The position numbers were made by a program, and so were the translations under genes. Shown here piece by piece: positions 7,074 through 31,280 of a stretch of DNA of 31,280 bases. Origin of the DNA: a virus; the IMG/VR virus record IMGVR_UViG_3300036801_000195, positions 1 to 31,280 of that record. One strand, 5' to 3'. Each line of letters begins with the position of its first letter. The first letter of the stretch is position 1. Under the pieces are notes generated by a model. That model did not search any database and was not told the DNA's origin. It was given only the letters and a program-made list of their open reading frames with translations.

Positions 7074-7870
7074 TACGCGATCAGTTGGGCGTAGGAGGCC
7101 GTCGCGCGGGCGGTCCCGGTGATGCCGACGCCTGTTACCACCACCTGCACCACGATGGAAATCTTGAAAGAGATGTTGAACGGAGCAATCTGGATGCTTG
7201 CCGGGGCCGTTCCCCCGATGGAACTTCCGGTCCACCCGTTATCCGCAGTCCCGGCGGTGTAAATCGGATATGTCTGCGCGCCCTGCCCGTCCACATTCAC
7301 GGTGAAGCTGATGTTGGTGAAGCTGCCAAACGTGGCGAGGTTGAAGCCGAGCGAGATCAAGCCGCCCGAGCCGGTATAGGAGAGCAGTGTGAAAGTTCCG
7401 GCTCCCGTCAGATTGATCGTCGCCGGGGGCTGAACCTGATAACCGGGAGGGAGTAAGTTTCCGACCACTTGGGAAGCCTGAACGCTGTTAACCGCGACTT
7501 TGTCCCAGGCGGTATCGACGGTGCCCTGGTTGTTCGTCAGGATGGCGAACGTCGTGGGACCCGGAACGTAGCTGTTGCCCATCGAAAACGCGGTCGCTCC
7601 GACGGTCCAGTACACGAACATCTCGGCCGCGGCGGTGTTGCCGGCTGAAATGGGATAGGGAGTCCCCTGATACCAGACCGTGCATGCGGACCAGGCGATG
7701 TTGCCGCCGGTGGGCGTATTGCTGCGGACGGTGAGGCCCGAGACAAACAGGCTCGCATTGACCGCGGCCTGCGTGTTCGAGATTTTGTGGATGGTATCGA
7801 CCAGCCATTTGTAGGAGCCGCCGAGCAGATCCCGCATCGACGTCGGGGGCGGCTGGATTGTGTTCGACAT
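7073..7870 (-). CDS. Putative tail protein at the tail-needle position
   Basis: 265 residues. An N-terminal helical segment (about residues 8-40, DLLGGSYKWLVDTIHKISNT) is followed by beta-rich, Gly/Thr/Val-heavy sequence to the end, as is usual for trimeric tail parts. The gene follows the gp10-like gene, where P22 places the needle gp26, but the trimeric coiled coil of gp26 is not evident, so another tail protein is possible. Its ATG overlaps the upstream stop by one base at 7870. Confidence 0.5.
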   Translation of the reverse strand: MSNTIQPPPTSMRDLLGGSYKWLVDTIHKISNTQAAVNASLFVSGLTVRSNTPTGGNIAWSACTVWYQGTPYPISAGNTAAAEMFVYWTVGATAFSMGNSYVPGPTTFAILTNNQGTVDTAWDKVAVNSVQASQVVGNLLPPGYQVQPPATINLTGAGTFTLLSYTGSGGLISLGFNLATFGSFTNISFTVNVDGQGAQTYPIYTAGTADNGWTGSSIGGTAPASIQIAPFNISFKISIVVQVVVTGVGITGTARATASYAQLIA

Positions 7871-9360
7871 TACGCGCCACTGCCGGCCGTACTTTCGACA
7901 AAGGCATCGACCAGCGCAATCGGGATCGGCTCAGACGTTGACCACTCAAACGCGCGGTCTTGCGAGCGCCCGAGGTTCCGCCAGATCGAGCCGTAGTTGT
8001 ACTGCCCGATGAAGCCCATGGGCATCTCAATCGGGTTTCCCCACGTTTTCCCGCCGTCGTCTGACAGGCGCAGATACGCGAGCGGTTCCGTTCCCGCGCC
8101 GTTCACGCCGTCCGCTTCCCCGGTGTTCTGGTAGACCGTGAGGCGCGAGTAATACATCCACTTGCGCTCCTGGAAGACCGAGCAGCTCCGCAGTCTCCGG
8201 ATGGGATTTCCCGCGTCCGTATACGTGTCGAGCGATTGCTGGTAGATCTTGCCGCTCGCGCGGTCCGAGACGAGATGTTTGCCGAAAGCGTACACATGCG
8301 CCCGCGCCAGATCCGCGTGATACCCGCCGTTGAGGGGGTCCCACCAGGCGCGCTGATGCCACAGGTGTGTGGCGCAGTCGTAGACCCAGGTCGCATCGCC
8401 CGTGGGGAAGTAGAGCGCGTAGAAGGTGTGCCCTTCCTCCTGGTAAATCCAGGCCTCGGCGTCGCTCGTCGTGCCGTACTTCGACCAGATGAATTCAAGC
8501 GCGTGAGTGGAAATGCGTTGCGCGTCGTAGCCGTTCGAGCGATAGCAGATGTTCGCGCCGTGCTCGCTGCCGCCGAGCCAGAAGACTCCGCCGTCGCAGC
8601 GCTTGAACGTGTTGGCGGCGGTTACGCCGACTTCGATTGAGGCTCCCTGGACGCGCTCAAAGGGAAAGCTCGGATCGCCCGCATCCCACCAGACCTCTCC
8701 GCGTTCCGTGCCCATCAGCCACAGCTCGCGCTTGTTCATCAGCATCGTGATGAGGTTGTCCGGCCAGGAATCTTTCGATGCGAAGTTGAGCGCCGCCCAG
8801 TCCTGTCCATCGGCGACAAACGACGTGAAAAATTGCCGCGTGCCGGGGTTCAGCGAAATGAAAAACATGTCGAGCAGCTCGAACTCGGCCGCTCCCGGAA
8901 ATCCGGACGCTCCCGGCTGGTTCGAGCTGACGAACGGGAAATTAGCGGTGTTGATCTGCTGGAGCGTGTTCGTCGCGAGGGTGAACAGATACCCGTTGTT
9001 GTTCGAGCTGATGACGAGCTGCGAGCCGTTTGACCGCATCGTGACGGGAGCGGTCAGGCCGGGGGGTTCCGCGAGGTTTCCCCGTGCGGTGGAGGTGCCG
9101 TTCGCCGTGAGTTCGTAGATGACGTTCGAGGAAACCGCGAAAACGCGGCCGGTCGCAGGCTCTTTCCAGAATCCACGCGCAGGGTACGTTCCGGCGCCCA
9201 TCGTCGAAAAGAGCGTCTTGCCGGGCGTTCCGAGCAGCACCGTGGGCGCTTTGGCTTCCGGGGTCTCGATCTTTTCGGGAAAGAGATTGATGCACTGCTC
9301 GGCCGCGGCGATTTTCGTCCGGCCCTGGTAAGCAGCGCCGATGAAGCCGAAACGCGCCAC
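7870..9360 (-). CDS. Packaged-DNA stabilisation protein, P22 gp10-like
   Basis: 496 residues (P22 gp10 is 472). Recognisable family features are EQCINLFPE near residue 22, then SLNPGTRQFFTSFVADGQ and WAALNFASKD, SWPDNLI, ELWLMGTERGEVWWDAG, FPFERVQGASIEVG, FWLGGSEHG and DAQRISTHALEF, as in the Phage_stabilise family. gp10 is the hexameric tail hub added after DNA packaging to close the portal channel and bind tailspikes. Start is GTG immediately after the TAA of the gp4-like gene, with no gap. Confidence 0.88.
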   Translation of the reverse strand: MARFGFIGAAYQGRTKIAAAEQCINLFPEKIETPEAKAPTVLLGTPGKTLFSTMGAGTYPARGFWKEPATGRVFAVSSNVIYELTANGTSTARGNLAEPPGLTAPVTMRSNGSQLVISSNNNGYLFTLATNTLQQINTANFPFVSSNQPGASGFPGAAEFELLDMFFISLNPGTRQFFTSFVADGQDWAALNFASKDSWPDNLITMLMNKRELWLMGTERGEVWWDAGDPSFPFERVQGASIEVGVTAANTFKRCDGGVFWLGGSEHGANICYRSNGYDAQRISTHALEFIWSKYGTTSDAEAWIYQEEGHTFYALYFPTGDATWVYDCATHLWHQRAWWDPLNGGYHADLARAHVYAFGKHLVSDRASGKIYQQSLDTYTDAGNPIRRLRSCSVFQERKWMYYSRLTVYQNTGEADGVNGAGTEPLAYLRLSDDGGKTWGNPIEMPMGFIGQYNYGSIWRNLGRSQDRAFEWSTSEPIPIALVDAFVESTAGSGA

Positions 9361-19925: not shown

Positions 19926-21410
19926 TTAGCCCCAGGCCGTCCCTTGGTACGCGGGCGCCGGCGGGGCCTTCGGTTTCTTTTGCGGCGCGACTTTCTGCGC
20001 GAAGGTGAGCGCGAGCGCGTCGGCATCGTCCGGAGACGCTACCCCGCGCTTCGCCATGTCTTGCTTGGACTCGATCACGAGCTGGTTTTGCCGGTTGACG
20101 TGGTAGCCCGGCCCGGTCAACTGCGTTTCGAGCTGGATGTCCCCAGGGATTCCGCCCGTGAGCAGCCAGTCTTTCACGCCGCTCCACATATACGCGCGCA
20201 TGTTGAGTTGGTGCGGATCGATCGACGATGCTCCGAAATTGACCTCAACCACGTTCTTGTGGCCGAGGACGCGAAGGCGCTCGACGATCGGCGAGCCAAA
20301 CGCCGAATCGATGAACATCACCGCCGGTCTGCGTTCCGGCCGGGGATCGGAGAGAATATCCGCCAGTTTCCCGACAATCACGTTGCGGTCACGCGACTGT
20401 TCGCCGGTCAGCCGCATTCTCGGCAATACCCGCCCGTCTTTGCCTTTGCGGAACGCGCACACCGTCCAGGCCGCGCCGCCGCCCGAGACGTCAACCCCGG
20501 CAATCAGCGGGTCATCGTCCAAGGGCATCACCTTGCGCTTCTGGGCGTCGTTCACGCGCTCTTGATCGATGAACTGAAGCTCGGAGGCGCTCGGCGGCAA
20601 CCCGCGCACGCGGACACGGAAGAAATCGCTATCCTCGCCATAATCTTCGAGCCACTCCGCGATCTGCTCTTTGTTGGTAAGCGAGGAAGTGCGGCTGTCG
20701 ATCGAGCGGTGAATCCAGCGGTGCTGCTCGTTGCCAAAACAGATGCGATGGAACTTGCCGCTTGACCGGGTCGGGTTGCCGAAACAGAAAATCATCGGCT
20801 CGCCGTCCGTGAGTCCGCCCTCGGCCACTTCCCAGATCTTGTCTGGGATCGCGCTCGCCTCGTCGAAGATGTAAAACGAGGTCGAGGTCTTGGCGTGCTG
20901 CCCCGCGAAGGCTTCCGAGTTTTCTTCTTTGCAGGTCTGGGCGGTGCAGAACCACTGCTCCGGCTTCTGCTTGTGCCGCATCGCGTTGCCGGTGATGCGG
21001 AACGCCGGGGCGATCAGGCTCCCAGCCGTCCATCGCTGAATCGCCGCCCAGGTCTTGGTTTCGAGCTGGGGAACCGTGTTGGCCGTCACCGTCCCGATCG
21101 AATTCGGGCGGGTAGCCATGATCCAATCGACTACCCAGGCGGTCCAGGTGGATTTCCCGATGCCGTGGCCCGACGCGATGGCGTGGCGGATCGGCTTAAC
21201 CGCGACGACTCCGTTGAAGTGGCGGCTCTTGACCTCTTCCCCGATGCGGCGCAGCTCGTCGGCTTGCCACTCGTCGGGGCCGTCGAAGGCTTCGAGCCCT
21301 TTTCCCGGCCGTCGCCACGGATACGCCCAGCGCACGAAGCCCAGCGGATCGGCGTAGAACTCCGCGACCTGGCGGGAGAAGGCTTGGCTATCGAACGCGG
21401 GACCGGGCAC
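19926..21410 (-). CDS. Terminase large subunit
   Basis: 494 residues (P22 gp2 is 499). ATPase: Walker A SGHGIGKST at residues 80-88 and Walker B FYIFDEA at 179-185. Nuclease (RNase H fold): GVDVSGGG around D307, FIDSAFG around D368, and SPDDADALAL around D461-D464. These are the acidic residues of viral DNA-packaging motors. The protein cuts concatemers and pumps DNA through the portal. The gene for the likely small subunit is at 22.8 kb. The start overlaps the end of a 59-residue gene by 23 bases. Confidence 0.93.
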   Translation of the reverse strand: MPGPAFDSQAFSRQVAEFYADPLGFVRWAYPWRRPGKGLEAFDGPDEWQADELRRIGEEVKSRHFNGVVAVKPIRHAIASGHGIGKSTWTAWVVDWIMATRPNSIGTVTANTVPQLETKTWAAIQRWTAGSLIAPAFRITGNAMRHKQKPEQWFCTAQTCKEENSEAFAGQHAKTSTSFYIFDEASAIPDKIWEVAEGGLTDGEPMIFCFGNPTRSSGKFHRICFGNEQHRWIHRSIDSRTSSLTNKEQIAEWLEDYGEDSDFFRVRVRGLPPSASELQFIDQERVNDAQKRKVMPLDDDPLIAGVDVSGGGAAWTVCAFRKGKDGRVLPRMRLTGEQSRDRNVIVGKLADILSDPRPERRPAVMFIDSAFGSPIVERLRVLGHKNVVEVNFGASSIDPHQLNMRAYMWSGVKDWLLTGGIPGDIQLETQLTGPGYHVNRQNQLVIESKQDMAKRGVASPDDADALALTFAQKVAPQKKPKAPPAPAYQGTAWG

Positions 21411-23234: not shown

Positions 23235-23351
23235 TCATTTGATACCCAGCGCGCGGAAAGCGTGAAGGCGAGAGTGCTTCAAGAGCGAGTCGGGGTTGCT
23301 GAACCGGCCGAGCAGCAGCGTGATGAGCTGGCAGAGCAGAGCGCGGATCAT
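23235..23351 (-). CDS. 38-residue hydrophobic small protein
   Basis: ATG at 23351 overlaps the stop of the truncated integrase as ATGA; stop TGA at 23237-23235. MIRALLCQLITLLLGRFSNP is amphipathic to hydrophobic and the end is basic (KHSRLHAFRALGIK). It would be made only if the upstream fragment is translated, evidence that this truncated region is still an operon. Confidence 0.45.
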   Translation of the reverse strand: MIRALLCQLITLLLGRFSNPDSLLKHSRLHAFRALGIK

Positions 23352-23761
23352 TTCCAGCCCTTTAGCTGATCCGCGACTTGTTCACGAGTCTTCCCCAGCA
23401 CCTGCGCGTAAATCTCCGTCGATTGAATCGAGCGGTGGCCCAGGTGATCCTTCACCTTCACCAGGTCTTTCACCCGCGCGAGTACGTGCGTGCCACAGGA
23501 ATGCTTGAGGGAGTGCGGATGCGCCAACTCCGCCGGGATGCCTGCCGCGATCGCGTAGCGCCGCATCAGACGATGGACCTGGCGCTCCCCGAGGGCTCGA
23601 TGGTTCCGCGAAACGAATAACGGACCTGCCGCAGTCCCCCGCTTCTTCACCCACGCGCGCACCGCCCGCGCCTCGACATCCACCAGCCGGTATTTCCCGC
23701 CCCTCGATCCTTTCTTCCTCCGGAACGTCAGCACCCCGGCCGCACCATCCCAATCGCTCAT
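23348..23761 (-). pseudogene. 5'-truncated tyrosine recombinase
   Basis: The frame from ATG at 23761 gives 137 residues that align along their full length with the C-terminal two thirds of the intact integrase at 24895-25554 (for example PHSLKHSCGTH, VKVKDHLGHRSIQSTEIYAQ and VLGKTREQVADQLKGWK). Kept: the hairpin Lys (RRKKG), H-x-x-K, H109 and Tyr118. Lost: everything upstream, including the first catalytic Arg (GLRASE in the paralogue). It cannot be an active recombinase alone. The truncation point coincides with the end of the HNH-like sequence and with the 97-bp inverted repeat, so it arose by recombination. It may persist as a short DNA-binding protein. Confidence 0.8.
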
Positions 23762-23993
23762 GGTAGGAAATCGGGGAAGTCCGATGGCATTTGTGACAGA
23801 GCGGCAGCGCCTGCCGATCGTCGGATTTCTGGCCCAGTCCCCGCGGGCCGAAGTGAGCGGCTTCGATCTGTCTCGGATGTTTGCCGCACGCCACACAGGA
23901 GAGCTGGCGGAGGTAACGCAGGTAGGCTGCGTCTTTGACTGGCTCTTGCTTGCCGTAGAGACGTTGGCTGTTGACCGCGAGGATAAAGCTCAC
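23382..23993 (-). pseudogene. HNH-like gene fused out of frame to the integrase fragment
   Basis: From GTG at 23993 the first 79 residues match the complete HNH-like protein at 29746-30075: LAVNSQRLYGKQEP, CVACGK, EAAHFGPRGLGQKSDD and ALPLCHKCHRTSPISYHE. After this point the frame runs on for 124 Gly/Arg-rich residues that are simply the integrase fragment read in the wrong frame, to a stop at 23384-23382. The native C-terminus (LGPVKFALAHK... in the other copy) is missing. Zinc-type Cys and His are kept. Thus it is a 3'-replaced copy, probably not functional as a full enzyme, though the metal-binding part is intact. Confidence 0.75.
23756..23852. repeat. 97-bp perfect inverted repeat, left copy
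   Basis: Its reverse complement is identical to 29884-29980 over all 97 bases, from TTCGGCCCGCGG to CCTACCATGAGC. Beyond it the sequences diverge at once on the 3' side, while on the 5' side the two HNH-like genes are only moderately similar. It encloses about 6.1 kb with the integrase and early genes. Confidence 0.92.
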
Positions 23994-24047
23994 CTCCGCT
24001 GCTCTTTCCCGATGACCAGCGTCAGTGCGGAGAGTTTCCGATCGCGC

Positions 24048-24248
24048 TCAGAGGATAATTGCTCGCTCCCGATAGAAGCTGCACGAGGGATCGTGCTCGC
24101 TCGATTTGCCGCGGGCCTGGGCACGGGCGAGCGTCATGGTCTGGCAGGGGCAGCGTTTGGCTTTTGACCGCGGCCGCCCTGCATTGGTGGTGATCTTGCG
24201 GGCCTTGTTCATCTGGCGGGCGGCTTCTGAGAGGAGAGAGGATTTCAC
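24048..24248 (-). CDS. Small basic protein with Cys motif
   Basis: 66 residues from GTG at 24248; an in-frame ATG at residue 13 is an alternative. NAGRPRSKAKRCPCQTMTLA is a basic AT-hook-like stretch (GRPRSKAKR) followed by CPC, and the end holds HDPSCSFYRER, so two Cys pairs or a Cys/His zinc site is possible. I recall similar R-C-x-C-x-x-M-T-L-x-R-A proteins in phages and bacteria. It is two bases behind the next upstream gene, in one operon. A DNA-binding role is inferred. Confidence 0.55.
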   Translation of the reverse strand: MKSSLLSEAARQMNKARKITTNAGRPRSKAKRCPCQTMTLARAQARGKSSEHDPSCSFYRERAIIL

Positions 24249-24250
24249 GG

Positions 24251-24511
24251 CTACAGGGCCTCCACTCCGACGCGGGTCCCCACTAGCAATCCGTCGAAGG
24301 CCGGAGCGAACTGAGATTTCAGGAGCTGCGCTTGCTTGCGCCCATCGATCCGCTCGCTGACAGTTCCACCGCCCATCCGGCTATAGACCACAGGCTGATC
24401 ATTTTGGAGCATGAGCTCGAACTTCGGATTCAGAAGCAACCGCCCCCCCGAGATGCGCGCATTCGGATAGCTCGTTTTCACCATTTCCAGGATGTCGTTG
24501 AGGTTGGTCAT
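24251..24511 (-). CDS. First gene of a short leftward early operon, unknown
   Basis: 86 residues from ATG with a good AAGGAG about 12 bases upstream. Sequence NLNDILEMVKTSYPNARISG is helical, then strands (GRLLLNPKFELMLQNDQPVV) and a Gly-rich turn, ending VGTRVGVEAL. No helix-turn-helix is obvious, so I do not call it a repressor. It sits directly behind the operator-rich promoter region at 24531-24608 and so is probably regulated early in infection or in the lysogen. Confidence 0.65.
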   Translation of the reverse strand: MTNLNDILEMVKTSYPNARISGGRLLLNPKFELMLQNDQPVVYSRMGGGTVSERIDGRKQAQLLKSQFAPAFDGLLVGTRVGVEAL

Positions 24512-24530
24512 TTTGTCGTTTGCTCCTTAC

Positions 24531-24608
24531 ATGATCATAGTGACATAATCACGTTATTCTGTCAACTAAACTGAAGTACCAATGTTGTGAGAAAGTACCA
24601 ATCATGAT
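24531..24608 (-). promoter_or_regulatory. Early promoter with several operator-like repeats
   Basis: An AT-rich island in GC-rich DNA, upstream of the 24251 gene. It holds palindromes ATGATCAT (24531-24538) and ATCATGAT (24601-24608), an inverted repeat GTGA-N5-TCAC (24540-24552), and a direct repeat AAGTACCAAT at 24574-24583 and 24593-24602 (19-bp period). On the minus strand a TTGACA and a TATGAT flank the GTGA/TCAC element, but 20 bp apart, longer than the usual spacer, so exact promoter elements are uncertain. The layout suggests repressor control. Confidence 0.5.
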
Positions 24609-24635
24609 TGCCGCCCTCTACGCCCCGCCACGCCC

Positions 24636-24890
24636 CTACTCGGGCCTTTTCTTTGCCTGGAGTTCCGAGATGCGTCCTTCAATGAGCTTGATCGCTTCTC
24701 GAAGCTCCGAGATCTGAACGTCGATCAGCGAATTCTGGACCCGATCCCAATGCTGGTCGAGCGTAAGGCCCGGACGCGCCCAATCGGGCTGGTGACACTT
24801 CGGGCAGCGCCGCGGCTCGTTCTCTGTTTGTCCCGTCCAATCGTGATCGCACAATATGCAGTGGAATTGCGGTCTTGTCTTCTTCGGCAT
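24636..24890 (-). CDS. Zinc-ribbon small protein
   Basis: 84 residues. HCILCDHDWTGQTENEPRRC then PKCHQPDW gives two CxxC pairs about 17 residues apart, a classic zinc ribbon, followed by a helical, coiled C-terminus (ISELREAIKLIEGRISELQA). The GGAGG ribosome site is inside the last codons of the integrase gene, four bases before its stop, so integrase and this gene are coupled. It may help integrase or bind DNA as a regulator; family not identified. Confidence 0.7.
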   Translation of the reverse strand: MPKKTRPQFHCILCDHDWTGQTENEPRRCPKCHQPDWARPGLTLDQHWDRVQNSLIDVQISELREAIKLIEGRISELQAKKRPE

Positions 24891-24894
24891 CCTA

Positions 24895-25554
24895 CTACCT
24901 CCAGTCGCGGAGCTGGTCCGCGACTTCCTCTCTCGTCTTCCCCAGCACCTGGGCGTAGATCTCGGTCGATTGGATCGAGCGATGGCCCAGGTGATCCTTC
25001 ACCTTCACCAGATCGTTGACGATCGATAGCACGTGAGTCCCGCAGGAGTGCTTAAAGGCGTGCGGATGAGCGAGAGACTCGGGGATTCCGGCCGCGAGAG
25101 CGTACTGGCGACACAGATGGTAAACCATCCTCCGCGAGATCGCGCGATGGTTGCGCGTGATGAAGAGAGGTCCGGCCGCCTGCCCGCGGCGCTTAATCCA
25201 TGCGCGGACGGCTTTGGCCTCGACTTCGACCAGGCGATAGGTGCCTGATGCCGATCCCTTCTTGCGCGTGATGCGCAGCGTGCCGGCCGCGGCGTCGAAA
25301 TCCCCGAGCTGGACGAGCCCGGCCTCGGAAGCGCGGAGGCCGCGATGGTAAATCACGCGGAATAACGCCCGATCGCGGGGCGATTTCACCGCCGCGAAAA
25401 ACTGCGCTATCTGCTGCTCGGACAAGTATTTAAGTTCGTCGGAACGCTGCTGGAAACGCTTGATCCTGCGGGGCTTGGCGAGTTGCCCAGTCTCATTAGA
25501 GTGAGCAATTCGGGGAGCCGCTGCAGCGGATCTAAAGGATTTGTTTGTCAGCAC
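24895..25554 (-). CDS. Tyrosine recombinase (integrase), catalytic-domain type
   Basis: 219 residues from GTG at 25554. Catalytic set: Arg74 in YHRGLRASE, Lys98/99 in the beta hairpin (ITRKKG), H165-x-x-K168 in PHAFKHSCGTH, His191 in LGHRSI and nucleophile Tyr200 in STEIYAQ. Lys in place of the usual Arg in box II is also present in the truncated paralogue and occurs in other integrases I recall. The protein lacks a normal ~100-residue N-terminal core-binding domain, so it is short like FimB/FimE. It should insert or excise the phage, or invert DNA. attP cannot be located by eye. Start overlaps the upstream gene by 23 bases. Confidence 0.88.
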   Translation of the reverse strand: MLTNKSFRSAAAAPRIAHSNETGQLAKPRRIKRFQQRSDELKYLSEQQIAQFFAAVKSPRDRALFRVIYHRGLRASEAGLVQLGDFDAAAGTLRITRKKGSASGTYRLVEVEAKAVRAWIKRRGQAAGPLFITRNHRAISRRMVYHLCRQYALAAGIPESLAHPHAFKHSCGTHVLSIVNDLVKVKDHLGHRSIQSTEIYAQVLGKTREEVADQLRDWR

Positions 25555-25795
25555 GGTGCGACGATCTTAACGTAACTGAGCAATTGACGGATTCCCCCGC
25601 CCTCGGAGCGTTCGCAGGCTCCGGATGGAGCGCCACCGACAAACTCAACGCTCGCACCACCTGGTGGACGTCCGCCAGCTCCACCTGGTCGCGGGCAAGC
25701 TCCGCCGCCGGCCATTGTCCCTGCAGGATGACTCTCGTTCGCCCGCGCCCTTCGCGGATTCGGCGAGACTGATCGGCCGCGGAGCAGACTCTCAC
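25532..25795 (-). CDS. Hypothetical protein upstream of integrase
   Basis: 87 residues from GTG at 25795, with the upstream stop in a GTGA overlap (25792-25795). SRRIREGRGRTRVILQGQWP is basic; AAELARDQVELADVHQVVRA is a helix; the rest is a Ser/Cys/Arg mix ending RADKQIL. It may be an excisionase-type or recombination partner because of its place before the integrase, but no such motif is visible, so this is speculative. Confidence 0.45.
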   Translation of the reverse strand: MRVCSAADQSRRIREGRGRTRVILQGQWPAAELARDQVELADVHQVVRALSLSVALHPEPANAPRAGESVNCSVTLRSSHRADKQIL

Positions 25796-26058
25796 CGAGC
25801 CTCCACCTTGCCGGCGCGTCCCAGCATGACGGTGCAGCCCCCGGACATGCCGGTGTGCCAGTGAAACGAACGGCCGTGGAGGGGATCGAAGGGGGAGAAG
25901 GTCCGGGCGACGAGCACGAGTTCGCCCTGATCGTTCAATCGCGCGATGCCGTCGAGGACGTATTGCCGAGCCCGGCCGGGAGAGGTAAAGCCTCCGCCTG
26001 AGAGCGGGACACGGGAGCGTTTGCGCGCCTGGCGGCGTGCGCGATGGGATAACGACAC
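25792..26058 (-). CDS. Hypothetical small protein
   Basis: 88 residues from GTG at 26058. The first 20 residues are very basic (RARRQARKRSRVP), then GGGFTSPGRARQYVLDGIARL and a strand-rich section (ELVLVARTFSPFDPLHGRSFH) ending in a Cys and Met-Leu-Gly turn. Nothing in it matches a known family. GTGA overlap with the next gene supports co-translation. Confidence 0.5.
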   Translation of the reverse strand: MSLSHRARRQARKRSRVPLSGGGFTSPGRARQYVLDGIARLNDQGELVLVARTFSPFDPLHGRSFHWHTGMSGGCTVMLGRAGKVEAR

Positions 26059-26111
26059 TTGGATTGTTGCCTCTGGGGGAGCCGCTCTATCCCGAGCGAC
26101 GAAATGGAGGG

Positions 26112-26136
26112 GGGCGCCCGATGTTTGCGGGCGCCC
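26112..26136 (-). terminator. Strong GC hairpin ending an upstream leftward unit
   Basis: GGGCGCCCG (26112-26120) and CGGGCGCCC (26128-26136) form a perfect 9-bp stem with a 7-base loop, in the 143-bp gap between the 51-residue gene and the 25792 gene. No T-run, yet it is the clearest hairpin in this region and probably ends or slows the 26.2-27 kb transcripts. The rest of 26059-26201 shows no gene. Confidence 0.5.
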
Positions 26137-26201
26137 GATTATGAATGAAACAACCGTTGGTGCGCTAGGAAAGACTCTACGTCACGATCGATTGGAATGC
26201 A

Positions 26202-26357
26202 TTACCCAAACAGATAGGTTCCCAATGTTAATCGAAAAGCTCGGGTGCGTCGTGCTTGCGGGCGCGTGCCTACCTGCGTCGGGTCGAGGATCCATTTCAT
26301 CGACGTGCCATCCCATACCCACCAGTTCCCATCGCTGCGCAGCCATCGCTCTGTCAT
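26202..26357 (-). CDS. 51-residue Trp-rich small protein
   Basis: ATG at 26357 overlaps the upstream stop as ATGA; stop TAA at 26204-26202. Sequence MTERWLRSDGNWWVWDGTSM then KWILDP and a basic stretch (RPQARRTRAF) ending LTLGTYLFG. Five Trp in 22 residues is striking for a miniprotein and suggests a small beta sheet. No family recognised. The overlap plus sensible composition support it. Confidence 0.55.
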   Translation of the reverse strand: MTERWLRSDGNWWVWDGTSMKWILDPTQVGTRPQARRTRAFRLTLGTYLFG

Positions 26358-26746
26358 GCTGCCTTCAGCGCCGTGACCGACACAATTTCTCGGGGCCCAA
26401 TCTGCTCGGTCTCCGTCAGATCCTCGAGCCCGGCTTCTCTCACCGCTTTGAGCGTGATCCCCGCGATTTCGATGAAGGTTTTCTGGCCGAGGCGCTGAAA
26501 CACTTCCATCTTGTCCGTGATCCAGCTCTTGTTTTCGCGCGCCGAGAGCAGCACGCGGAACTCGCGGCTGTCAAACGTAGGGCGGTCGGTGGCCTTGAAG
26601 CTCTCGGCATCTCCCCAGGAGAGGATTTCCGCTTTCAGTTCCTTGTGACGGTCGAGCTGGGGCTTGTAGAGCTTCAGCAGCCGGTCGAGTTCGGCGAATT
26701 CGTCGATCAGTTCTTTGCGGGAGGGAGATTTCGAGGGGCGGGGCAA
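26354..26746 (-). CDS. Hypothetical early protein
   Basis: About 130 residues from TTG at 26746, a weak start but no ATG occurs before residue 80. Helical N-terminus (KELIDEFAELDRLLKLYKPQ, coiled), then a beta section (TFDSREFRVLLSARENKSW) and FQRLGQKTFIEIAGITLKAV. I recall small phage proteins with this LLSAxxxxxxI ... RLGxxxFxEI ... PRxIxV pattern of unknown role. It lies leftward of an AT-rich gap with palindromes. Confidence 0.6.
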   Translation of the reverse strand: MPRPSKSPSRKELIDEFAELDRLLKLYKPQLDRHKELKAEILSWGDAESFKATDRPTFDSREFRVLLSARENKSWITDKMEVFQRLGQKTFIEIAGITLKAVREAGLEDLTETEQIGPREIVSVTALKAA

Positions 26747-26848
26747 GCAGTCTTCAGTGTCGGATCAAAGAGTAGGCGGAGGAAAGATTCACTGTGGTTA
26801 GTATGTGTATCCAGAGTGTCGCACGCCCGAGACACTTTGCATTGTGGA

Positions 26849-26867
26849 AATCATTTCGGAAGTGATT
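26849..26867. promoter_or_regulatory. 19-bp near-perfect palindrome, operator candidate
   Basis: AATCATTTCGGAAGTGATT pairs at 8 of 9 positions around a central G. It lies in the 174-bp non-coding, AT-rich gap 26747-26920 between two leftward genes, together with GTGTC...GACAC (26816-26835) and GTGGT...ACCAC (26876-26891). No clear -10/-35 pair found. Such a cluster fits binding by dimeric repressors. Confidence 0.45.
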
Positions 26868-26920
26868 GATTTTTTGTGGTGCGTTGACCACGAAATGTAG
26901 GAGTTTTCGAATAGCCTAAC

Positions 26921-27433
26921 TCATTGATTTACCGTTCGGCCGCGTCCACCGGTTTTGCCGCCCTTCCGGTTGCGTCGAGCAGTGGGAGTTTCGAGGCTCG
27001 CCGCGTACAATTCCGTGGCCCGGTCTACCGTCATGTCCGGCGCTCCGGCGAAGTAGGGCGCGAGTTTCGGTTCGAGCCGCTTCATCTCGCGCAGCTCGCG
27101 CTTGTCTTCCTTGAGCCGCTCTGGACTCCTGCGTTCGTAGTTGTAAGAGCGAATGCGCCGTTCGAGCGCTGTGATCCGCGCCCGGTACCGGTCGAGCGTC
27201 TCGCCCTCCACGATCCAAACGTGCTGAAAGCCCGCAAAGCTCAACTGCCGCGCATCCGGCGTCTTGCGTTTGATAGCCCGGATCTGCCCGGCGATGGAGC
27301 GGCGCGCGATCTGGTGGCTCACTTCCGCCCAGCGTTCCGCGCCTAGTTCTCGGATGAGCGCATCGGCCAGGCGCTCCGGGTCACCGGGGCGCGCGGCGAA
27401 TTCTCGGAGCTGCTGAGCGAGAAGGTCAGGCAT
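26921..27433 (-). CDS. Hypothetical protein, charged and helical
   Basis: 170 residues. Helical, with LLAQQLREFAARPGDPERLA at the start, RRSIAGQIRAIKRKTPDARQ in the middle, a clear coiled-coil stretch (ALERRIRSYNYERRSPERLK, then KRELREMKRLEPKL) and a Gly/Arg/Lys-rich basic tail (RRNRKGGKTGGRGRTVN). Likely nucleic-acid binding from charge; no family known to me. ATG 11 bases after the secreted-type gene. Confidence 0.55.
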   Translation of the reverse strand: MPDLLAQQLREFAARPGDPERLADALIRELGAERWAEVSHQIARRSIAGQIRAIKRKTPDARQLSFAGFQHVWIVEGETLDRYRARITALERRIRSYNYERRSPERLKEDKRELREMKRLEPKLAPYFAGAPDMTVDRATELYAASLETPTARRNRKGGKTGGRGRTVNQ

Positions 27434-27444
27434 GGGCTGCTTGA

Positions 27445-27933
27445 TTAGTGCCAGTTAAAATCGCCACAGGCAGCTCGCACTCTGACACCTTGGGAGGTCA
27501 ATTGAACCTGGGTGTGACTAGCAGCGGCGAGCCGCCCAAAGGTAAGGAGTTCAGCGATACATAAATCTGGAGCGCCGTTGAACCGAGCCGCGACGATCTC
27601 CATTACCATAAGTGTCGAAACCATTCGATTTTCTGGCTCACTATAAATCCGATCCATCGCATCGAGCGTAGTACCCACCTTCATCGCCGTGTTTGCAAAA
27701 AAGGATCCAGGAATCTCTGTGATCCGATGAATATCGGTTTTGTTGAGTTTTCCGGTTCCGATGATCTCCGCCCGCGCTGCAACCACTGAGCTCGCGTCCT
27801 GAACCCCTTGAATGTAGGCGATTCGCGCCGAAGTCCCCCACTTCAGCCAATCACTCCCGTTCGCGCTCTCCAGCGAGTCGCCTTCCCCGCTGGCAAGTGC
27901 GCCTAGGGCGAGAGCTAAAAACAAGAATTTCAT
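27445..27933 (-). CDS. Sec-signal small protein of the early region
   Basis: 162 residues from ATG at 27933, which overlaps the stop of the frameshifted upstream gene as ATGA. MKFLFLALALGALASG is a short Sec signal peptide. The mature part is W-x-x-W-G-rich then helical (SARIAYIQGVQDASSVV, GTTLDAMDRIYSEPENRM), resembling secreted YIxGxxD ... DxxYxxPEN proteins I recall from environmental bacteria, of unknown function. It may act in the periplasm, for example in superinfection control. A longer in-frame ORF upstream (to 28089) arises only from the frameshift and is not used. Confidence 0.55.
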   Translation of the reverse strand: MKFLFLALALGALASGEGDSLESANGSDWLKWGTSARIAYIQGVQDASSVVAARAEIIGTGKLNKTDIHRITEIPGSFFANTAMKVGTTLDAMDRIYSEPENRMVSTLMVMEIVAARFNGAPDLCIAELLTFGRLAAASHTQVQLTSQGVRVRAACGDFNWH

Positions 27934-28068
27934 AATTTGCTCCGCTTCTTCTTCGCCCATCTCGCCTTTGCAGCTTTCCGCGCCCGCCTCTGCGCGTTCT
28001 TTGTCGGTCCGCTTCGCTGCCGTGGCATGGCCGCCCTTCGAACCCAACTCCTGCGCTGCTGTGTTCAT
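27930..28068 (-). pseudogene. KGG-type small basic protein with one-base frameshift
   Basis: ATG at 28068 reads LGSKGGHATAAKRTDKERAE, the start of a common small protein (KGG-x-ATAAKR-x-x-x-ER). The expected end (RARKAAKARWAKKKRSKL then TGA) is present but in the next frame. The region is 139 bases, one more than a multiple of three, and the switch falls at a GGG in GCGGGCGCGG (plus-strand 27983-27985). Without the extra G the protein is about 45 residues and its stop overlaps the next start as ATGA. A real mutation, programmed slip or sequence error are all possible. Confidence 0.7.
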
Positions 28069-28071
28069 GGC

Positions 28072-28101
28072 TTGGCAACAGTACCACAAATCCCGTAGAA
28101 T
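28072..28101 (+). promoter_or_regulatory. Rightward early promoter, leaderless-type
   Basis: TTGGCA (28072-28077), 18-bp spacer, TAGAAT (28096-28101). The next start codon is at 28110, only eight bases after the -10 box, so the transcript would start within a few bases of the ATG, a leaderless message. It lies in the 41-bp divergent gap between leftward and rightward early genes. Confidence 0.5.
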
Positions 28102-28109
28102 GTGAATGC

Positions 28110-28286
28110 ATGATTAAAAGGGGCAGTACCAGCGTTTCTGATGCCGCTAGGCTCATGAACGCGGCCCGGAAGACCAAAAGTGGCGGCCGCAAGCCGGTAA
28201 TGCGTCCCTGCCCATACTGCAAGAGGAAGTTCAGCGCCCGCGAGATTCGCATCCACAAGCCCACCTGCATCGCTCGCAAAAAATAG
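28110..28286 (+). CDS. 58-residue zinc-finger protein, first rightward early gene
   Basis: ATG at 28110 to TAG at 28284-28286. The C-terminal half is PCPYCKRKFSAREIRIHKPT then C, a C-x2-C-x12-H-x3-C finger (C34, C37, H49... C53 region) with basic ends, as in many phage and eukaryotic C2HC fingers. The N-terminus is polar (SVSDAARLMNAARKTKSGGR). As the first gene of the rightward unit, from a leaderless-type promoter, it is a good candidate transcription regulator. Confidence 0.65.
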   Translation: MIKRGSTSVSDAARLMNAARKTKSGGRKPVMRPCPYCKRKFSAREIRIHKPTCIARKK

Positions 28287-28317
28287 TACTTTTCTCAAGC
28301 CGTCAGCGTTTTTGTCC

Positions 28318-28346
28318 TTGCACAAACAACGTGACAGGTGTACGAT
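28318..28346 (+). promoter_or_regulatory. Weak candidate second rightward promoter
   Basis: TTGCAC (28318-28323), 17-bp spacer and TACGAT (28341-28346) lie in the 85-bp gap before the 28372 gene. Both boxes are imperfect. A ribosome site AAGGAG follows at 28356-28361. Confidence 0.3.
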
Positions 28347-28371
28347 GATTTCAGTAAGGAGTACGAAGGCG

Positions 28372-28632
28372 ATGGGTTACCAGGACGAAGCGAGCAGGGA
28401 TTGGGAGCGGGAGCAGAGCGCGGAGCGGCGGGCGGCGGAATTAGAGAACTCGGGCGAATTCCGGGATCTGACGGAAGACGAAATCGAAGAACGCGACCGG
28501 GCGTGGGAGGCGCGGCGGTCGATCTGGGATGTGTACCAGGAGCGGTTCGAGATCGAGAACGCGGTCGAGATCCGGGAGTTCGTCCGCCGGCCGGCGGGAA
28601 TGCAGGGCCGGTTGTTTGAGGAGGTGGCGTGA
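28372..28632 (+). CDS. Very charged small early protein
   Basis: 86 residues from ATG at 28372, chosen because AAGGAG lies ten bases upstream; an earlier ATG at 28345 would add nine residues. The protein is almost all Glu, Arg, Asp and Ala (REQSAERRAAELENSGEF, EERDRAWEARRSIWDVY), a long helix, ending PAGMQGRLFEEVA. Acidic helical phage early proteins can mimic DNA or bind polymerases; no evidence for either here. TGATG overlap links it to the next gene. Confidence 0.6.
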   Translation: MGYQDEASRDWEREQSAERRAAELENSGEFRDLTEDEIEERDRAWEARRSIWDVYQERFEIENAVEIREFVRRPAGMQGRLFEEVA

Positions 28633-28895
28633 TGAACGAGAAGGATCAGAAGGAACTAGATCGGCGGCATGGCGAATTGCTGGACCGGGTTAATGAACTA
28701 TGGGCTTTTTGCGCGGCCCTGCAGGCGGTTCTAGAGAAGCATCGGATTCCGCGGGCTGAGATTCACCAGGAATTCGGCCGGATGTTGGAGTTGACGGCCG
28801 ACACGAAGAAAAAGACCCTAGCAGCCCTCGAATCCCGCAAGCGTCTTGAATGGCTCGACGAGCTGCTGCGGAACGCGCCTCCAACAAAGCAATAG
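28632..28895 (+). CDS. Small helical early protein
   Basis: 87 residues; ATG at 28632 with GAGGAGGTG just upstream and a one-base stop/start overlap. Predicted helices KELDRRHGELLDRVNELWAF and ILEKHRIPRAEIHQEFGRML-like segments, then KTLAALESRKRLEWLDELL. No domain recognised. Bases 28896-28964 contain only the ribosome site of the next gene. Confidence 0.6.
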   Translation: MNEKDQKELDRRHGELLDRVNELWAFCAALQAVLEKHRIPRAEIHQEFGRMLELTADTKKKTLAALESRKRLEWLDELLRNAPPTKQ

Positions 28896-28964
28896 GGGCG
28901 TCGCGGTCATCCATCGGTTTCCAGTGTAGCCGTTGCTGGCTCAAAAAAGCGAGAGGAGAGAATC

Positions 28965-29633
28965 ATGCAAGGACGAGGACTGAGCGAAGTAGTCGATTTC
29001 CCCTTCGGCGAACCCGTGCAGGTTGCGCTGAAATACGAAGGCTTGGGCAAAGCGTGCGCCACGGCGGGCGGACGGACGCGGTATCTGTTCACCCTGAGCG
29101 ATGGGCGCGTGATGTTCCACGAGGAAGCGGAGGCGCAGAGACTCACGCAGTTCCGCGCGGGCGAGACGTTCTGGATGCGGCGCAAGCGCGGCGCGGGGAA
29201 GGGCGCGCCCCCGCTCTGGGAGATGTGGCGCGGCGCGGAGTCGGGCGCGGCCGAGCGCGCGCTCGCTCCGGACGCGACGCCGTTACAGCGGGACCTGGCG
29301 CGGAGTCTCGATCGCACGGCTCCTCACTCAAACGGCGGGGGATCGCTGCACGGGGAGCTGGTGGTCAGAAAGGAGGCGAGCACGGCGGGCGCTGCTCCAT
29401 CGGAGGTGAGACCAGCGCCCGCACGCATGGACGAACAAACGAGCAAGCCCAGTATCGCACGCCCGAAGACGCAGCTCGAGGGCGCATTGTGCACCGCGAT
29501 CGCGGCGGCGAAAACCGCCCAGGAGTACGCGCGGGAGATCGGCTTCAGCGTCACTTTCCAGAGCGAGGATATCCGGTGCATGGCGAACACCGTGCTGATC
29601 GGCATCCAGCAGCGGAACGGACACGCCGCATGA
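28965..29633 (+). CDS. Phage early protein, possible nucleic-acid binding
   Basis: 222 residues; AGGAGAG close before ATG. Residues 10-85 are strand-rich with a pattern I recall from phage proteins of unknown role: VDFPFGEPVQVALKYEG, RTRYLFTLSDGRVMFHEEAE, FRAGETFWMRRK, possibly an OB-like barrel. A Gly/Ala/Pro linker (90-160) leads to a conserved helical end (LEGALCTAIAAAKTAQEYAR, FQSEDIRCMANTVLIGIQQR). ATGA overlap at 29630-29633 joins the next gene. A DNA-handling role is a guess. Confidence 0.55.
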   Translation: MQGRGLSEVVDFPFGEPVQVALKYEGLGKACATAGGRTRYLFTLSDGRVMFHEEAEAQRLTQFRAGETFWMRRKRGAGKGAPPLWEMWRGAESGAAERALAPDATPLQRDLARSLDRTAPHSNGGGSLHGELVVRKEASTAGAAPSEVRPAPARMDEQTSKPSIARPKTQLEGALCTAIAAAKTAQEYAREIGFSVTFQSEDIRCMANTVLIGIQQRNGHAA

Positions 29634-29749
29634 CCACTCAGGAACTTCGCGACGAGGGATTCGTTCCGTATTCCGAGGTGCTGCGCTTGAGGCGCTGGTG
29701 CGCGATCGCGTGGGTCGCGGGTCTCGTGATCGGGTGGTTCGCCGGATGA
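29630..29749 (+). CDS. 39-residue membrane miniprotein
   Basis: ATG at 29630 in an ATGA overlap with the preceding gene; TGA at 29747-29749 overlaps the HNH-like start as ATGA. The N-terminal 21 residues are polar and the end RRWCAIAWVAGLVIGWFAG is one membrane span. Being between two coupled genes it is surely translated. Function unknown, maybe exclusion or lysis support. Confidence 0.6.
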   Translation: MTTQELRDEGFVPYSEVLRLRRWCAIAWVAGLVIGWFAG

Positions 29750-30075
29750 GCTACATTCTCGCGATCGCGAGCCTGCGACTGTACGGCGGAGAACGGCCGC
29801 TGGTGGATGAGGCGTACAAGCGCTTCATCCGCCGCGAGCCGTGCTGTGCGTGCGGGAAAGCGAAGCGCAGCGAAGCCGCCCATTTCGGCCCGCGGGGACT
29901 GGGCCAGAAATCCGACGATCGGCAGGCGCTGCCGCTCTGTCACAAATGCCATCGGACTTCCCCGATTTCCTACCATGAGCTTGGTCCGGTAAAATTCGCG
30001 CTGGCGCATAAGCTCGATGTGGCGGCGCAGATTGCCAAGCTGAATGCATTCTACGAGGAGAAACTGAAACCATGA
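29746..30075 (+). CDS. HNH-like endonuclease, complete copy
   Basis: 109 residues. Zinc/HNH pattern: C33-C34-A-C36-G, AAH at residues 44-46, PLCHKCH at 63-69 and H77 in ISYHELG, in the layout of small phage HNH / DUF968-type proteins (CxxCG ... AAHxxG ... SDxxxxPLCxxCH). Such proteins are metal nucleases or recombination partners coded near ninG-like genes. The C-terminal 30 residues (VKFALAHKLDVAAQIAKLNA...) are absent from the broken leftward copy. Contains the right arm of the 97-bp inverted repeat. ATGA overlaps on both sides. Confidence 0.7.
   Translation: MSYILAIASLRLYGGERPLVDEAYKRFIRREPCCACGKAKRSEAAHFGPRGLGQKSDDRQALPLCHKCHRTSPISYHELGPVKFALAHKLDVAAQIAKLNAFYEEKLKP
29884..29980. repeat. 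97-bp perfect inverted repeat, right copy
   Basis: Identical, in inverted orientation, to 23756-23852. Lies inside the complete HNH-like gene, codons for residues 47 to about 79. Just past it this copy continues TTGGTCCGG, the other GATTGGGATGG (leftward strand). Confidence 0.92.
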
Positions 30076-31177: not shown

Positions 31178-31280
31178 GACCAAGGCCCGACGCACATTCT
31201 CACGCGCCCGAAAGCACGACGCACCGAGATCTTCTGAAACCATTTGCGGGTGAGTTCACAATAATCCACCGTGGCACTTT
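31174..31280 (+). CDS. Partial ORF running off the window
   Basis: ATG at 31174 in an ATGA overlap with the 24-residue ORF; 35 codons remain open to the window end. The visible part is polar, with several His, then DLLKPFAGEFTIIHRGT, which looks like the start of a folded domain. No family can be named from this. Confidence 0.4.
   Translation, partial: MRPRPDAHSHAPESTTHRDLLKPFAGEFTIIHRGT

Follow-up and report, generated by a model that had tools for sequence, protein, structure and literature searches.

Two HNH-like genes of a metagenomic soil phage contig share a long perfect repeat in inverted orientation, which raises the question of whether the DNA between them is a phase switch, whether the repeat is the scar of a recent recombination, or whether it reflects an assembly join, the three readings that had been offered from the sequence alone. 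The window analyzed here is the whole IMG/VR record, a linear metagenomic viral contig of 31,280 bases whose head module is P22-like (coat, PF11651; portal, phrog_156; scaffold, phrog_8865; and the large terminase listed below). For the early region, the closest named relative was L118, which comes from a MAG of the Terriglobia (Acidobacteriota), and the host of the phage is therefore probably acidobacterial. No close DNA relatives were found among phage records, and in the terminase relatives, which are up to 77% identical, the HNH/Int region was absent from the DNA examined. The features on which the analysis rests are as follows.

19926-21410: large terminase
23348-23761, minus strand: Int1, a headless tyrosine recombinase, C-terminal 137 aa (PF00589 profile positions 49-168 of 172)
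23756-23852, minus strand: the HNH1 arm of the 97-nt repeat, matching 29884-29980 in HNH2 exactly
23853-23993, minus strand: N-terminal part of HNH1, diverged from HNH2, with a GTG start and a Shine-Dalgarno-like AGCGGAG upstream
23853-29883: segment of 6,031 bp that, from the geometry of the arms, would invert if they recombined
24895-25554, minus strand: Int2, a complete short tyrosine recombinase of 219 aa, catalytic domain without recognizable core-binding domain
28312-29749, plus strand: early genes running into HNH2, with similar-looking genes in L118
29746-30075, plus strand: HNH2, a complete DUF968/HNH gene, by matches to PF06147 and phrog_96/131 and by its relatives
29884-29980, plus strand: 97-nt repeat arm in HNH2, an exact match to the HNH1 arm

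The exact 97-nt inverted repeat reported by the sequence-only reading was borne out at these coordinates, and its ungapped extension retained 108 of 110 identical nucleotides (23756-23865 against 29871-29980). Within the 31,280-base window there was no other exact inverted match above 16 nt, the next longest being of 16 nt. The HNH1 arm encodes most of the HNH zinc-binding core. The gene parts preceding the repeat had been described as moderately similar, in agreement with the 56 of 135 nucleotides (41%) and 21 of 45 residues at which HNH1 and HNH2 differ there. Among the codons that specify the same residue in this upstream part, 11 of 24 (46%) were synonymously different, as against 0 of 32 codons differing within the repeat. 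At the upstream synonymous rate, the chance of finding all 32 codons unchanged would be near 3e-9 even with every residue held fixed, which argues that the 97-nt tract was copied or exchanged recently; judged by its codons, the repeat is a very recent copy and not mere conservation. The two edges of the tract were of different kinds. Toward the HNH N-terminal parts the repeat grades into homology, with 11 of the next 13 nucleotides matching, and at 23756 it breaks abruptly into sequences that had been called unrelated and did prove so upon alignment. Elsewhere in IMG/VR, the 28-nt core of the repeat had no match, and a degenerate pattern spanning the HNH-Int1 junction matched no other record in a search that may have missed near-identical ones. 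A second inverted repeat, of 25 nt with one mismatch, was observed at 26244-26268 and 31201-31225 (24-nt pattern, 0 expected by chance). Both of its arms lie outside the main predicted genes, one within and one beyond the 6.1-kb segment; it was absent from the relatives examined and is possibly a regulatory or recombination site.

Both HNH genes belong to the DUF968/Orf-HNH family, with PF06147 scores of 33.4 bits for HNH2 and 30.4 bits for HNH1 against a cut-off of 27.8, both matches being confined to the HNH portion (profile positions 83/88-141 of 171) and leaving out the Orf-like N-terminal domain. Members of this family have been described as Orf-like recombination mediators fused to an HNH domain (PMC4118853). 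HNH2 overlaps both operon neighbors by ATGA, one at each end, and its C-terminus, previously taken to be native, recurs in relatives, among them L004, L095, and L096. HNH1 is without a C-terminus of its own, and after CATGAGC its frame enters the interior of the integrase Int1. In L118, similar-looking genes of 97 and 206 aa precede the HNH gene in the same order as here, a likeness that was read by eye and not scored. The L118 DUF968 homolog itself (7740-8135, minus strand) has lost the four zinc-binding cysteines, with LPSAVSG and PLTWEEH in place of LPCxxCG and PLCxxCH, a loss that may have cost it the zinc binding of its relatives.

The description of Int1 as headless was likewise accurate, since the gene comprises just the C-terminal 137 aa of the PF00589 catalytic domain. 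It retains the His/Lys/His and Tyr end of this domain and is without the first ~83 aa, including the GLRASE arginine (the first catalytic arginine), as gauged against intact relatives (L089-L102, L118-L120) and the Int2 of the same window; Int2 spans the complete catalytic domain (2-168 of 172), whereas Int1 alone does not (49-168). No recognizable ribosome-binding site was present at the Int1 ATG, on which ground the gene is probably dead. Against the L118 integrase, its dN/dS was ~0.1, so Int1 was a real gene under constraint until recently. Its C-terminal part was 83% identical in amino acids to this Terriglobia prophage integrase and 72% to Int2, and an origin of Int1 as a duplicate of Int2 was rejected because Int1 is the nearer to L118. 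In the simple two-domain definition of tyrosine recombinases, a core-binding domain lies upstream of the catalytic domain (PMC8138268). Int2 departs from it, as no core-binding domain was matched in this protein, and Int2 and most of its close relatives have merely ~20-50 aa ahead of the catalytic domain. More broadly, Int2, L033, L089-L116, and L118-L122 belong together as one family of tyrosine recombinases that are short, mostly of ~180-230 aa, have no recognizable core-binding domain, and carry HPHxxKH(S/T) where HxLRH is usual. The family is found both in phage contigs from the environment and in MAGs of acidobacteria, and its genes frequently neighbor a DUF968 HNH gene or immediately precede the terminase genes. 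Int1 and Int2 are paralogs located 1.5 kb apart in one contig, and related records carry one gene of that type.

The HNH gene was found in 15 of 18 related records and the close short integrase in 11 of 18. Fourteen of the 15 records matched had a single HNH copy, the fifteenth (G002) having an extra weak match (E 1e-4), and each of the 11 carried one clear copy of the close short integrase, with distant ordinary integrases besides. Because the relatives have essentially one copy each of the HNH gene and of the short integrase, the doubling is peculiar to this contig. None of these relatives had paired inverted HNH copies, and in the seven related loci checked there were neither such pairs nor comparable repeats across HNH. 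One of the related stretches, L093, has an unrelated 59-nt inverted pair. The synteny with L118 is confined to the interior of the segment and thus cannot settle its orientation.

Among the three readings offered, a recent scar gave the best fit to the identical tract, the abrupt edge, and the truncated genes. We consider it fairly probable that the 97-nt repeat arose recently as a templated patch, the scar of a single episode of break repair in a P22-like phage of mosaic make-up. Homology at one edge together with microhomology at the other is a trace of break repair with a copied patch, and, as in a gene-conversion scar, identity in the tract rises sharply above that of its flanks, with homology at an edge. 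The break would have fallen between the old HNH1 gene and the old Int1 gene, and the inverted paralog HNH2, ~6 kb off, would have served as the repair template. The HNH1 end would then have paired with HNH2 by homology and copied ~97 nt of the HNH2 core, though copying in the opposite direction, from HNH1 to HNH2, may have taken place instead. A short microhomology, probably TGAGC, would have joined the new end to sequence inside Int1, leaving HNH1 truncated and Int1 beheaded in one event and not two, with the intact HNH2 and Int2 presumably carrying the functions. As far as the bases at the break indicate, the 23756 junction probably sits in this TGAGC microhomology of ~5 nt. The residues MS that precede DWD at the break agree with the intact relatives, which follow [LM][SGTEA]D[WYF] (LSDWD in L093, MSDYR in L096). 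Because these relatives have L or M, often followed by S, before D[WYF], the ATGAGC of the junction is likely native, whole or mostly, to both the HNH gene and the integrase. Against a single event, no intact HNH1-Int1 ancestor was found, and two separate events, a conversion and then a deletion, therefore fit equally.

Such a templated patch has precedents in phage recombination. Phage recombinases readily use diverged templates, and lambda Red recombines genes diverged by 22% (PMC2327257). The mosaicism that homeologous or illegitimate recombination creates in temperate phages (lambda Red, PMC2327257; Rad52-like recombinases, PMC3945230) shares with this locus a short recent patch between diverged genes, abrupt intragenic junctions, and truncated leftovers; the difference is that the donor in this contig would be the phage's own inverted paralog. 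No Red/Erf-like gene was recognized among the window proteins scanned. Once formed, the repeat could now allow the segment to invert occasionally through general homologous recombination, which would be a side effect of the scar and not the work of a dedicated switch.

The alternative that survives best, possible though rather unlikely in our judgment, is a mis-resolved assembly, in which the repeat is genuine, as are the four junctions flanking it, and the wrong flanks were linked, either as a 6.1-kb flip or by joining two co-occurring phages through the 97-mer. The earlier argument from k-mer size retains part of its force, given that 97 nt exceeds several of the k-mer sizes generally used in short-read metagenome assembly, that the record is a linear contig of metagenomic origin, and that under either linkage one HNH gene is complete and the other truncated; the linkage of flanks, and with it above all the orientation of the 6.1-kb segment, could thus be mis-resolved. 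Invented breakpoints are another matter, and here the argument was weaker than stated. For a k-mer (de Bruijn) assembler, false links can arise only over stretches shared for the length of k, and at 23755/23756 and ~23852/23853 the shared sequence beyond the tract amounts to only ~10 nt or less, so that both breakpoints were present in sequenced molecules. Under either linkage, the junctions of HNH1 with the repeat and of the repeat with Int1 need real molecules. That the C-terminal part of Int1 is closer to an integrase of another phage than to Int2 would suit a join of two phages, but in the drawn linkage HNH2 is normal and full-length, with neighbors overlapping on both sides, and assemblers normally break at unresolved repeats instead of crossing them. 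A laboratory chimera, produced by template switching during PCR or amplification and carried into the assembly, appears improbable. Polymerase template switching would also suit homology at one edge with probable microhomology at the other, and the junction was seen in no other IMG/VR record; two switches within 97 nt, assembled as the only path, are nevertheless unlikely for sporadic chimeras.

Still less probable, and very unlikely overall, is a functional inversion switch in which the arms recombine through the phage tyrosine recombinase or homologous recombination and exchange the HNH N-terminal part. The 6,031-bp segment holds Int2, the N-terminal parts of HNH1 and HNH2, and the early genes, and recombination is predicted to give a complete 110-aa HNH1N-R-HNH2C frame and an HNH2N-R-Int1 product. 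Each orientation would thus yield one complete HNH frame, and a tyrosine recombinase gene does lie inside the segment. The predicted inversion swaps just the HNH N-terminal parts, however, and would also move the early genes while leaving the integrase broken in either orientation. The phase switch put forward earlier is accordingly disfavored, since inversion restores nothing in the integrase, paired inverted HNH copies are absent from the relatives, and no invertase was recognized in the window proteins scanned. A maintained switch would more likely show two intact or mirrored gene ends. Type I hsdS loci, whose inversions operate with 15-85 bp repeats and a locus-encoded recombinase, share with this locus two inverted partial gene copies with an identical internal segment and a nearby tyrosine recombinase gene (PMC7394358). 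The resemblance is formal only, as the gene here encodes an HNH nuclease in place of a specificity subunit, the early genes are carried along, and the arrangement is known from one orientation and not conserved in relatives. A narrower proposal, in which Int2, although without a core-binding domain, acts at a site in the HNH core to invert the 6-kb early segment where its own gene lies and exchanges the N-terminal part of an Orf/HNH-family nuclease, would make a phage counterpart of the inverting hsdS loci, and we hold it to be marginally less probable again. The invertible Mu G and P1 C segments also place phage DNA between inverted repeats, but these have a serine invertase (Gin/Cin-type) and defined crossover sites. 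No member of the serine invertase/resolvase family was recognized among the window proteins scanned, from a contig that is perhaps incomplete. Finally, long-standing purifying selection on an HNH core that was conserved and not copied is consistent with the zinc-binding cysteines and histidines located there, but it was rejected as having almost no probability, since third positions are also identical across the tract (0 of 32 codons against 11 of 24 just upstream) and other family members differ within the core itself.

The locus advises caution, since an inverted repeat of ~100 bp in a metagenomic phage makes it uncertain how the sequence on its two sides is ordered. Detection of both orientations would make the locus a new kind of phage gene-shuffling switch. 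Read as the scar that we favor, it would document recombination within a genome, between inverted paralogs, as an expected route to mosaic phages and to broken integrase genes.
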